The notes beneath the pieces are model-generated. The model was not told where the DNA came from. It worked only from the letters and a program-made list of their open reading frames with translations, and ran no database searches. Below, one piece after another: positions 4,719 to 28,575 of a stretch of DNA of 64,000 nt (positions within the stretch are counted from its first letter, which is position 1; the number at the start of each line of letters is the position of its first letter). The translations under genes and the position numbers were made by a program. Location: contig NZ_JAAGVY010000010.1 in NCBI RefSeq assembly GCF_010686655.1, positions 62,001 through 126,000 on the forward strand, in the 5' to 3' direction. The DNA is from Cryomorpha ignava. GTDB lineage: Bacteria > Bacteroidota > Bacteroidia > Flavobacteriales_D > Cryomorphaceae.

Positions 4719-5174
4719 GTGTAAGTGTTTATTCACAAAGTTTAAACCGCTTGAAATGCAATGCTATTATACTTCTTTTAAAGCTCGTAAAAGGGTAAAA
4801 AGAGATTGAGTAATCAATTGATTTCATCTTTCGGAGCAGCGGCTGCGTTGATTTAAACCCTATCGGACTGCCGTAATTCGTGCTTTCAAAAATCGCCTAC
4901 TCAATTTTTACTAAAGTAATCTACAAAATCTGCATCAGCACCTTTTCTACAAACCTTACACAAATTTTATCAATTCCCACATCTGATAATCAGCTAATTA
5001 CCCCACCGCCTTGTTAAAACAAATTAACAAAAAGTTAGGATAACAAAATCATAACCATTAATTTCAGAGCCACATTAAGAAAGAGTAAGCATTCGCAGCA
5101 GACGGCACCCAAAGATTGAAAAATTAGTTTCAACCAGTGGTTTATTTGACCGGCAGGAACTACGAGAAAAGAAT
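4719..5174. other. AT-rich intergenic region, nothing recognised
   Basis: Between the minus-strand polysaccharide cluster and the accessory patch I see no convincing ORF, RNA gene or repeat. It separates two divergent transcription units and may hold promoters I cannot assign. Confidence 0.5.
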
Positions 5175-5180
5175 AAAAAA

Positions 5181-5203
5181 ACCCCAACGGACAAGGTTGG
5201 GGT
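5181..5203. promoter_or_regulatory. Stable stem-loop preceding the SD-led mini-ORF
   Basis: ACCCCAAC (5181-5188) pairs perfectly with GTTGGGGT (5196-5203) around a 7-nt loop. No T tract follows on the plus strand. A run of A precedes it, so on the minus strand it would look like an intrinsic terminator, but there is no nearby minus-strand gene to end. It lies 22 nt upstream of the Shine-Dalgarno sequence of the five-codon ORF and may be part of the same leader RNA. Confidence 0.5.
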
Positions 5204-5224
5204 CATCAAAACCACCAGATCGAT

Positions 5225-5256
5225 AAAAGGAGGTGATTATGAAAAAACAAAAGTAG
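5225..5256 (+). CDS. Five-codon mini-ORF (MKKQK) with a near-perfect Shine-Dalgarno sequence
   Basis: AAAGGAGGTGAT (about 5226-5237) is complementary over 12 nt to the canonical 16S rRNA 3' tail. It is followed immediately by ATG at 5239 and a frame coding M-K-K-Q-K, stop at 5254-5256. Bacteroidota genes rarely carry SD sequences because bS21, bS18 and bS6 hold the anti-SD, so this stands out. The frame could be a leader peptide, a translational sensor or a decoy; it ends 49 bp before the GTG of the type IX cargo gene. Coding is inferred from the signal, not from conservation. Confidence 0.45.
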
Positions 5257-5305
5257 TACATTTATTCAGTAACTTCTTCAATAGGAACTATGAGGACCTT
5301 AAGAG

Positions 5306-6441
5306 GTGAAGAATTATTTCTACTTTAATATTGCCGCTATAAGCGAAGCTGCGTACTTCAGAATTACAACGTACTTAAACAACAAATTAATTTTTTTAAA
5401 AATTCCTATTTTGATTTACCGTTTTATATTTTTTGCGATGAGTATTTTGACTTGGCATACAAGTTTTGCTCAGTCACCTAACCTTGTTCCAAACGGAAGT
5501 TTTGAAACACGAATTGAATGTATATACAATGATGGCTTTATTGCAGATGCACCACCCTGGTTTAACCCAACACGAGCTACACCAGATTTATTTCATCAAT
5601 GTGCTGTAGTAAATACAGACCCTTGTCCATGGCCAGATCAATACTATCTCGACCCTTGGCTTTATGGCATACCAACCAACTTCATGGGTTGCGAACATCC
5701 TTATGATGGCGATGGTTATGCAGGATTATTCGTGGCTGGTAATAATATCAATGGATATGATGGCTATAAAGAAAATTTAGGTGTTCGTTTAGTTAATCCA
5801 TTAGTTGCCGGAAATCAATATACACTCAAATTTGCTGTATCACTGCCTGAAAGGGTCGGGTATGCCATTTGGAATATCCAAGTTTTTTTGGTCCGGATAG
5901 TATTTTCCAACCGGATAGTATTATAGCACCGTATGATAGTTATGTTGAGGTCAATCCTCAACTTTCTGGAACAATTGGTGAATTTATTACCAACTACGAT
6001 GGTTGGCACGAAATAGCTTGGGACTATACCGCCAATGGTGATGAAACCTTTATGTATATTGGAAACTTTCAACCAGATTCAGAAACGGATACTTTGTATG
6101 TGTTGCAAGAAGACCCTAGCTCAAACTATTCCCTGTTTTCGTATTATTATATTGATAAAATAGAACTAAGAGAAGGCACTTTAAGCACTATAGATATTCC
6201 GTTGGAACAACTCTTTAAAATATATCCAAACCCCGGAACAAACGGGCTAAAGATTGAGTCAAGTTCTAATATAGATAATATTCAGATTTTCAATCTTGAA
6301 GGTCGAAATATACAAAATGTAAACTTTGTTTCAAATGAAATTTACGATGTTGATATTTCTCCGCTTTCAAGTGGAATGTATATTATCAAGATTGTATTTG
6401 AAAATGGATTGGTTGAAAACAGCAAATTTATAAAACGGTAA
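5306..6441 (+). pseudogene. Frameshifted secreted protein with type IX sorting domain
   Basis: Two overlapping frames form one protein. Frame one (5306-5926) has a hydrophobic export signal ending TSFAQ and then PNLVPNGSFE, a common start of mature type IX cargo. Frame two continues through 6441 with FFGPDSIFQPDS, a beta-rich region, and a C-terminal sorting domain (IYPNPGTNGLKIES ... GMYIIKIVFENGLVENSKFI). The frames join at a run of seven T at about 5883-5889; one more T would restore a single frame. It may be a real loss, a slippage switch or a sequencing error. The GTG at 5306 is uncertain; the signal could begin at internal starts near 5430. Confidence 0.75.
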
Positions 6442-6467: not shown

Positions 6468-6590
6468 ATGAAAATTTTTACACTTTTTTTTACATTCTTA
6501 TTAACTTATGTTCTAACAATCAGTATAACACAAGTGTCCCGATTCCAGAGTGGATTCTTTCTTTGTTATAAAAAAGTTCCCACCGGCTGA
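6468..6590 (+). pseudogene. Secreted-protein gene truncated by the IS3 element
   Basis: The ATG at 6468 opens a frame whose first 20 or so residues (MKIFTLFFTFLLTYVLTISI) are a good signal peptide. After about residue 21 it enters the end of the IS3 element and stops at 6588-6590. The remainder of the gene is not recognisable beyond the other side of the element. This looks like the start of a second secreted protein downstream of the type IX cargo gene, cut off by transposition. Confidence 0.5.
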
Positions 6591-7380
6591 ATACTTCAGT
6601 TGCATTGGCAAGAGATTCGAACTCGAACCGCCTACATACTGCCCTAGCAATGATGCTGTGGTACGACTCTATATGGGCGTTCTGCTCTGGTGTGGCAGGT
6701 TTGGTAAACTCTTGGTTGATACCTTTTGATTGAAAATACGCTCTTACGATTCCGCTTTCAAACTGCGAACCATTGTCGCAACGCACATAAATTTCATTCG
6801 GCATCTTATAATCCTGGAGCAATGCATCAAAAAATCCTACCACGTCTTCTTTCTTGATGCTCCACTGCATCATCCACCCTATCAGATACCGACTGTATAC
6901 GTGCACCACACTCAACATAGGCGCATACCTACCTAAGTGATGTATGTATATGAATTTTATGTCGAACTCCCAATAGGTAAAGGCTGCTGTAGGTTTTGGT
7001 ACCAGTTCTTTCACCCATTGCTTTTTGTTTTTTGGTTTTGGCCTAACGACATTTAGCAGGCGGGCATCCTTCATCAGCCGGTACACCTTCTTGTGGTTGA
7101 TCTGGTATCCGAGTTCATCCTGCAAGTAATAGGTGACCTTTAGGTAGCCATAGTCCACAAATTCTTGGGCAAGAAGTGCTTTTATTTCTGCCACGACCAC
7201 AGTGTTTTCCACCCGTGATCCATCCGTCTTGCATGTATGTCCGCTTGGAATGATTCCTTTGCGACTCTGCTCTGCCAAAGGCTTGGGCTTATGGAAGTAC
7301 GTACTTCTGGGTACCCCGCAGATTCTAAGCACTAATTGGGTACAAAACCCTGATTCTATATACAACCGGGCTACCATCAT
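6520..7380 (-). CDS. IS3-family transposase OrfB (DDE integrase domain)
   Basis: 286 residues. The rve integrase core has its three acidic residues in order: WEFDIKFIYIH (first Asp), VRCDNGSQFES (second Asp) and NAHIESYH (Glu), with spacing typical of DD35E IS3 transposases. An HTH_21-like segment (QINHKKVYRLMKDARLL) precedes the core. The frame is open upstream of the ATG and joins OrfA by a probable -1 frameshift at an A8 run, giving an OrfAB fusion. It catalyses transposition of the element. Confidence 0.92.
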   Translation of the reverse strand: MMVARLYIESGFCTQLVLRICGVPRSTYFHKPKPLAEQSRKGIIPSGHTCKTDGSRVENTVVVAEIKALLAQEFVDYGYLKVTYYLQDELGYQINHKKVYRLMKDARLLNVVRPKPKNKKQWVKELVPKPTAAFTYWEFDIKFIYIHHLGRYAPMLSVVHVYSRYLIGWMMQWSIKKEDVVGFFDALLQDYKMPNEIYVRCDNGSQFESGIVRAYFQSKGINQEFTKPATPEQNAHIESYHSIIARAVCRRFEFESLANATEVFSRWELFYNKERIHSGIGTLVLY

Positions 7381-7384
7381 CCTT

Positions 7385-7684
7385 TCAGCGGCAGTAACTT
7401 CTTTTTTTTAAGAGCTCGTCTTTGATCCTGATCTCAAGTTCCTTCTCTGCCACCAATTCTTTTAACTTTTGGTTTTCTCGCATGAGCTTTTTGAGTTCAC
7501 CGCTGCTGATGTCCAGCTTGCCAGAAAGTGCTGTTTCACCGCCTGACTCAAAGCGAAGCTTCCAAGATTGAAGCGTAGGGTATGAGATGTCGTGCTTGCG
7601 CGCCGTCTCAACCCAACCATTGTCTCGAGCCTCTTTAATGATGGTGATTTTTTCCTGTGTGGTTTTTCGTTTTTTGTTTTTCAT
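7385..7684 (-). CDS. IS3-family transposase OrfA (helix-turn-helix)
   Basis: 99 residues from ATG 7684, which I chose over the 7732 start because the latter would lie in the terminal repeat. An HTH of the transposase_8 type (ETARKHDISYPTLQSWKLRF) is followed by a leucine-zipper-like helix (LKKLMRENQKLKELVAEKEL). It binds the element ends and regulates transposition. The 3' end has TTAAAAAAAAG (minus strand, about 7411-7401), an A8 slippery run where a -1 shift would lead into OrfB. Confidence 0.9.
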   Translation of the reverse strand: MKNKKRKTTQEKITIIKEARDNGWVETARKHDISYPTLQSWKLRFESGGETALSGKLDISSGELKKLMRENQKLKELVAEKELEIRIKDELLKKRSYCR

Positions 7685-7853
7685 TGGTTCTAAATTAAAG
7701 CTTTTTTCAAACTTTAATCGGAGTCCAATCATTTAGGGGGCTGGTGAGCAAGAATAGCTTTTGTTTGCACGCTGTTTTCTTGTAGCGCACGCTTCACATC
7801 GTTAATCTAAATTCAAACGAAATTTTTACTAAATTTGAAAGAAAGAAATCGAA

Positions 7854-28160: not shown

Positions 28161-28566
28161 GGGGCCGACTGGTTTCGACAACATGAAGTGGTTGTTTAGT
28201 AAGCGTGTCGAGCGTTGGAAGTATTGCTCGTAAATATCAATTTCCAAGCCTATAAATGGCGAAAACAATTACGCTCTCGCAGCCTAATTAGTCACAGACT
28301 AAAACAAGGCTTAATTCTGGGTGAAGCACAGTAACCCGGAGCGAGTGCCCGGCAGCTTATCTGTTCTTTATAGGTTGCCATACGGGTATCAAACTTTAGA
28401 ACTCAGGAGGTTAAGTGTCTTGATTAACATCCGAAATTGAATTAAGACTAAGCTTTAGGTAGGCTGTTCGATGTCAGCTTAAAGTCGAAAAACAATATTG
28501 AACTACACACGTAGAAGGCTGGATAGTCCCATGCTTGCACGAGGGTTCGAATCCCTCCGGCTCCAC
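28161..28566 (+). ncRNA. ssrA: Transfer-messenger RNA
   Basis: The 5' GGGGCCG pairs with 3' CGGCTCC to form the acceptor stem, the 5' end continues CUGGUUUCGAC, and the 3' end has the T arm GAGGGTTCGAATCCCTC, the tRNA-like half. The tag frame at 28258-28287 reads G-E-N-N-Y-A-L-A-A then TAA, where the final LAA is the usual protease signal. It rescues stalled ribosomes with SmpB. The repeat array lies directly downstream of its terminator. Confidence 0.97.
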
Positions 28567-28575
28567 TTGATGATC

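Follow-up and report, generated by a model that had tools for sequence, protein, structure and literature searches.

The window, a stretch of 64,000 nucleotides from Cryomorpha ignava, probably carries a small RNA (sRNA) gene of about 69 nt on its minus strand at positions 5175–5243, and it is this gene that appears to form the conserved unit of the locus. The five-codon ORF reported on the opposite strand is most likely the complement of the sRNA gene. The gene likely belongs to a real multicopy family with 17 copies in total, of which three are in the own genome (G000) and 14 in relatives (six in G003, two in G007, three in G004, and three in G091). The sequence shows conserved promoter elements, a covarying structure, a terminator, an invariant anti-SD core, and a link to one family of type IX surface operons.

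Features of the predicted small RNA gene

On the plus strand, positions 5226–5241 carry AAAGGAGGTGATTATG as the original prediction had it, with the 12-nt motif AAAGGAGGTGAT exact at 5226–5237 and the mini-ORF ATG AAA AAA CAA AAG TAG at 5239–5256, 1 base past the motif. The stem described upstream of the mini-ORF is also present (5180–5204). The motif has no other exact match in the 64-kb window, and its eight window matches with two or fewer mismatches are at chance level (mean 5.75). We take the 12-nt motif to match the 16S rRNA 3' tail, going by the commonly known 16S sequence. The other basis for this match is the CCUCC core of the anti-SD (PMC9976891).

Read on the minus strand, the same stretch has the order promoter, CATAATCACCTCCTTTT, hairpin, GC-rich hairpin, and Ts. 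The putative -7 promoter box TACTTTTG lies at 5248–5255, 6 nt ahead of CAT, and a possible -33 TTG is located at 5279–5281 with a gap of 23 nt; the consensus of the Bacteroidota -7 box is TAnnTTTG (PMC9723704). The predicted 5' end at about 5243 assumes that the box spans -12 to -5, the placement given for Flavobacterium psychrophilum in the same source, and the 3' end would fall in the T run. The mini-ORF is the complement of the spacer and the -7 box. The element CATAATCACCTCCTTTT (5225–5241), which resembles the anti-SD or 16S tail and is identical in 10 of the 17 copies, lies within hairpin 1 (5207–5241), where 5241–5232 pairs with 5216–5207 and UCCUUUUAUCGAUCU forms the loop. Hairpin 2 and its T run (5175–5204) have the GC stem followed by Ts of a predicted intrinsic terminator, with one found against 0.4 expected in shuffles. 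The window copy folds with a z of -3.57. It scored 42.4 bits with covariance model R1, which was built without this copy, and 68.7 bits (E 7.5e-14) with model R2, which has this copy among its 13 source copies. An Rfam covariance search, as had been suggested for the site, was run, and no family reached threshold for the sRNA site. The only Rfam match at the gathering threshold in the window is a tmRNA at 28161–28568 on the plus strand.

Copies in the own genome and in relatives

Model R1 was built from seven copies of G003 and G007, and R2 from 13 copies. R1 recovered the three own-genome copies, all outside its build, along with further G003 copies, new copies in G004, and, at a weak score, one copy in G091, which belongs to another family of the order. 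The original prediction, which was to fall if related genomes lacked copies, stands on this point because the element recurs in relatives. In an order sample, R2 gave matches better than E 1e-5 in at least 5 of 399 genomes and matches at E 0.1 in at least 22, and in a class sample of 395 the own genome alone was better than E 1e-5, with at least 23 at E 0.1; these counts are lower bounds, the large scans having covered 10 or 17 candidates in each genome. The weakest accepted copy, G091_C70b, has 29.1 bits and was accepted for CAT-N7-CCTCC, box, and position, and dismissed matches reach 33.2 bits. Weak covariance matches outside the accepted 17 include G002:C164 (26.2 bits) and L208 of G005 (24.6 bits). 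Eight alignments of the weaker matches were viewed by eye; none had CAU-N-CCUCC, most matched the terminator, and they were set aside as chance-like. Contigs of named genomes yielded two distant cargo homologues and no RNA match better than E 0.93.

Across the 249 genomes searched, exact matches to the minus-strand 17-mer CATAATCACCTCCTTTT number three in the own genome, five in G003, two in G007, and one in G064. The G064 match and the one-mismatch 17-mers of other genera were rejected as copies of the sRNA unit: of the 27 loci checked (seven more listed matches came without a locus), one has the -7 box ahead of the 17-mer and six have a T run behind it, but none combines the box with a run of six T. 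Within the own genome, a pattern search found a second motif site with ATG-TAA in place of ATG-AAA, and a DNA search returned three long matches with 100% (the window itself), 80%, and 81% identity. Viral contigs searched with one 30-nt pattern had no exact match, and a plasmid search gave two short matches only, covering 8–10% of the query.

CAT and CCTCC are found in all 17 copies (CAU-N5/7-CCUCC in RNA form); what varies is the stretch of 5–7 bases that separates them, together with loop and terminator. The -7 box is an exact TAnnTTTG in 13 copies and a one-base variant in four, with its putative place at -12 to -5 depending on the predicted start site. It stands 6 nt from CAT in 16 of the 17 copies and 1 nt in G091_C70a. 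A TTG occurs 20–21 nt upstream of the box in 11 of 16 assessable copies and at no other gap in more than three; the gap is 23 in two (the window included) and 17 in one, another copy has TTG at both 18 and 29, and one has none. The T run has 6–7 residues in 14 copies and 3–4 in G004_C1, G004_C8, and G091_C70b. In G091 (L184:1041–1425), two tandem sRNA copies precede one cargo gene; in one the promoter spacer is 1 nt long rather than 6 nt, and in the other the T run has only 4 residues. An inverted repeat with non-conserved arms was also observed about 12–36 nt upstream of the -7 box, around the -33 region, in 14 of 15 copies (5281–5291 in the window, where it is weak).

The plus-strand reading of most copies is GGAGGTGATTATG-NNN-TAG/TGA-CAAAGATA, or near it; the -7 box is TATCTTTG, and its reverse complement forms the last part of this conserved string. 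CTA is the commonest triplet after the -7 box in the sRNA copies and follows none of 49 other promoter-like sites (probably mostly chance matches), so these sites do not show a general promoter preference for CTA. The mini-ORF frame is ATG-(NNN)-stop in 14 of the 17 copies, with the stop after one or two codons and TAG, TGA, and TAA all represented; the frame has 5 codons in the window and 23 and 45 in two other copies. The products seen are MKKQK, MN, M, MT, MS, MM, MK, MR, and MD, besides the two long frames. The five-codon Lys/Gln ORF of the original prediction is not supported by these frames. A five-codon leader peptide or a leader-peptide attenuator with conserved codons was rejected for the variation in length and codons.

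Structure and strand

Two main hairpins are predicted in each of nine copies examined (z between -2.86 and -5.73). In a 17-row alignment fitted to the structure, on which the following covariation statistics are based, pairing is retained in 93.4% of 317 cells, compared with 74.3% for shuffled sequences, and falls to 41–46% in slid-structure controls. Both-side changes were present in 53 cells (shuffle mean 15.1, reached by 0 of 500 shuffles) and in 12 of the 19 pairs (7.8 on average in shuffles, with 12 reached by 1 of 500), including all seven pairs of helix 4, the terminator hairpin. Further pair types numbered 28 against a shuffle mean of 21.9 (5 of 500). The consensus energy of the fitted alignment is -21.4 on the minus strand and -12.9 on the plus strand; the fitting matters because the unconstrained alignment A8 has almost no consensus fold (-0.78 on the minus strand and 0 on the plus strand).

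As single sequences, all 17 copies fold better on the minus strand, and 35 paired cells are G-U pairs, which the plus-strand reading would turn into mismatches. The minus strand is favored by the promoter, the terminator, and the covarying stems with their G-U pairs, and the conserved sense-strand stops favor an additional plus-strand role. The constancy of CAT and CCTCC alone cannot pick the strand because a seed complementary to a ribosome site and a true ribosome site share the same constraint. No copy has lost the T of CAT, even though it is unpaired in four of the 17.

Neighboring type IX surface operons

Fourteen of the 17 copies lie directly head-to-head with a gene of the cargo family, which bears out the proposed tie to a type IX cargo gene. 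A fifteenth, G091_C70a, is at one remove, behind another sRNA copy ahead of the same cargo gene. Of the other two, G003_C222b sits at the end of a contig, and the gene opposite G004_C1 is a different one, with a signal-peptide-like start. The cargo products share a conserved N-terminal domain (NLVPNxSFE...CP in an alignment of eight), and a type IX sorting tail is present in three of four products scanned and absent from the truncated frame of the window. Products of the second gene contain Peptidase_S74 in three of five scanned, and no match was obtained in two, one of them cut by a contig end. Of 30 fetched loci of the cargo protein family, 11 have the sRNA, the nine best-scoring included, an association that is partly built in because the query came from eight carrier genes.

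The window copy adjoins a broken operon. Its head-to-head cargo gene (5306–6441, plus strand, start codon uncertain) is split by a frameshift at or near the T7 tract 5883–5889, and the start of the second gene (6468–6519, plus strand) is cut off by a pair of transposase genes (HTH_Tnp_1; HTH_21 + rve) inserted in it at 6520–7732 on the minus strand. An intact paralogue of the cargo gene is located on contig C28 (L062:15388–16524). In several copies, a C tract lies roughly 110–175 nt ahead of the terminator of the sRNA (C10 in G004_C2, G007_C406, and G003_C222b, and C9 in C28B), and the window is C-rich at 5001–5010 upstream of the terminator. Such tracts could make the surface operons phase-variable.

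Proposed mechanism and candidate targets

We infer the transcription of the sRNA, the extent of the facing leader, the target, and the direction of the effect as follows. A housekeeping-type Bacteroidota promoter would start an RNA of about 69 nt with two hairpins, the first bearing the anti-SD stretch CCUCCUUU, part in the stem and part in the loop, after CAU, the complement of the start codon, and the second serving as the terminator. Most likely, the sRNA would block translation by base-pairing with the SD core and AUG of ribosome-binding sites. The first candidate target would be the 5' leader of the facing surface operon, which would be fully complementary if it extends across the sRNA, and the shared seed would also reach leaders of paralogous operons. 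Translational repression is proposed on the basis of this anatomy, which known anti-SD double-hairpin RNAs share and which is similar to FopS (PMC5688073, PMC4603805, PMC11697453, and PMC3927594).

Among 153 own-genome start regions, a mechanical selection based on ATG-started frames with 100 codons or more, those of the operons were not unusually complementary to the seed (C28 operons rank 23, 55, and 117, and window fragments 41 and 73). The full 17-nt complement occurs in the own genome only opposite the sRNA copies, and two more AAAGGAGG-ATG sites, which head ORFs of 414 and 501 codons, are within control counts. SDs are rare in Bacteroidota mRNAs, and the binding partner of a free anti-SD is therefore puzzling.

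No convincing sense promoter was recognized for a leader transcript running across the sRNA. In the interval between element and gene, an exact TAnnTTTG was found only in G003_C50, without TTG at -33 spacing. An upstream TTG with a one-mismatch box at 19–21 nt was found for the G003 copies except C221 (about 58 nt before the terminator) and for C28A and C28B (about 225 nt before it). The fold z of eight sense leaders ranges from 0.21 to -2.87. The inverted repeat noted above, whose arms vary but whose place in the leader is nearly constant, has a summed score of 75 against a mean of 57.2 and a maximum of 68 in 300 shuffles (2 of 15 copies singly at p < 0.05), and hints that the sense strand is transcribed there.

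A link to bS21 and rpsU, also part of the original prediction, was not borne out. A strong SD before rpsU has been described for many Flavobacteriales (PMC9976891). Pairing of the rpsU leader with the anti-SD is weak in the four carriers read (-4.8, -5.9, -0.9, and -4.3 kcal/mol in G000, G003, G004, and G091, respectively), and bS21 sensing is therefore unsupported; no rpsU was found in G007. The own rpsU leader has AAGGA only, and rpsU as the target, or autoregulation of the rpsU type, was rejected for the own genome, where the strong SD is absent. An opposition between presence of the sRNA and a strong rpsU SD was also dropped, because 23 of 27 rpsU loci are weaker than -8 kcal/mol (32 loci minus 2 unparsed and 3 read from an upstream TTG in G005, G025, and G085). 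The rpsU leader of G005 contains AAAAGGAG.

Alternative explanations

The main rival is a corrected form of the original idea, in which the cargo leader would carry a perfect SD, an ATG, and an immediate stop on the sense strand, where ribosomes park and stabilize the mRNA or sense ribosomes with a free anti-SD. We consider it unlikely, although an sRNA needs neither the sense ATG found in all 17 copies nor the immediate stop found in 14. The spacing of 5 or 7 nt between SD core and ATG, the T of CAT that is kept even where unpaired, the lack of CTA after other promoter-like sites, and the inverted repeat in the leader of most of 15 copies, as a transcribed sense leader might have, are all consistent with such a site. 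It has no clear sense promoter, however, and it leaves the minus-strand -7/-33 spacing, the T run, and the G-U pairs unexplained; the frame has 5, 23, and 45 codons in three copies, and the conserved stop falls at minus-strand positions -4 to -2, where promoter constraint could act too. Because the SD core and ATG stand at start-codon spacing in every copy, the locus may combine a sense-strand site and the sRNA in one sense/antisense pair. A more elaborate version, which we hold to be quite improbable, is a one-locus switch in which only ribosomes with a free 16S tail could use the perfect SD and start-stop of the leader, and the facing sRNA, as a detachable copy of the tail, would compete for the leader site. 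If so, paralogous surface operons would read the state of the ribosomes (bS21-free ribosomes) and each other.

A decoy of the 16S tail, or a global anti-SD regulator unrelated to its neighbors, would bind either the platform-pocket proteins of the 30S subunit or SD-bearing mRNAs encoded far away; we hold it to be very unlikely. The core matches the CCUCC anti-SD that Bacteroidia ribosomes hold in the bS21/bS18/bS6 pocket (PMC9976891), the motif is more constant than the stems, and G004_C1 faces a different gene; against this, the sRNA is tightly linked to one operon family. The rpsU gene, the known SD gene, is weak or SD-less in the four carriers read, which also speaks against a decoy, but most other relatives read have the same. 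Least of all do we expect a non-functional repeat spread by operon duplication. The broken window operon with its frameshift and transposase genes, the decayed look of the two C70 copies of G091, and the copies in tandem arrays would suit such a repeat, but compensatory changes and an invariant core are seen across genera and across two families of the order.

Comparison with known systems

In literature listings and abstract openings, most subscription papers being outside the search, no description of such an sRNA family was met, and as far as this literature goes the family is unnamed. The Betaproteobacteria toxic sRNA family RF02278, or Burkholderia double-hairpin RNAs, is with FopS the nearest in design, although it is from another phylum. 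By analogy of predicted structure, the window sRNA shares with RF02278 two hairpins, the second a terminator, and a CU-rich unpaired stretch. The window sRNA scored 18.7 bits with RF02278 (gathering threshold 50), with no sequence-level match, and this weak match is no evidence of kinship because unrelated sRNA families score as high (Hrs12 21.9 and RybB 19.0). With RF02837 (anti-hemB), the score was 18.8 bits against a gathering threshold of 49.5. The Burkholderia RNAs, as far as their descriptions go, are not tied to one operon family, unlike the window sRNA.

Sok/mok, CopA, and Inc/repY are small terminated antisense RNAs that face a leader with a translated short ORF. The antisense layout is the same here, but the leader transcript is putative. 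Rhizobial RNAs with CCUCCUCCC in their loops are known as cuckoo RNAs. SmelA075 and SmelA099 of rhizobia, like the window sRNA, present an anti-SD motif (CCUCCUCCC) in hairpin loops, with a constant loop and variable stems; they differ in having three or four such hairpins and another motif, and in belonging to the alphaproteobacteria (PMC3927594). The extended SD of Flavobacteriales rpsU resembles the window motif in its long complementarity to the 16S tail (PMC9976891). It starts a real ribosomal-protein gene, whereas no gene follows the window motif, for which the complement is the better reading.

FopS/GibS of Bacteroides thetaiotaomicron are also multicopy Bacteroidota RNAs of about 65–70 nt with a canonical promoter, and they use a conserved 5' seed to pair with a surface operon at its start region (PMC11697453). 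In the same source, they are not found one per target operon (nine are intergenic, four antisense, and one from a 3' UTR), and the printed FopS query (GTGTTTTTCATAG...) is without CCUCC, unlike the window sRNA. By eye, only CATA is shared with the FopS/GibS 5' seed as printed in PMC11697453. Overall, sRNAs with anti-SD loops are already known in bacteria outside Bacteroidota. A conserved anti-SD sRNA in Bacteroidota, where the anti-SD is hidden and mRNAs are mostly without SD, would raise the question of what purpose a free anti-SD has, and it would be an sRNA coupled to type IX surface proteins one operon at a time.
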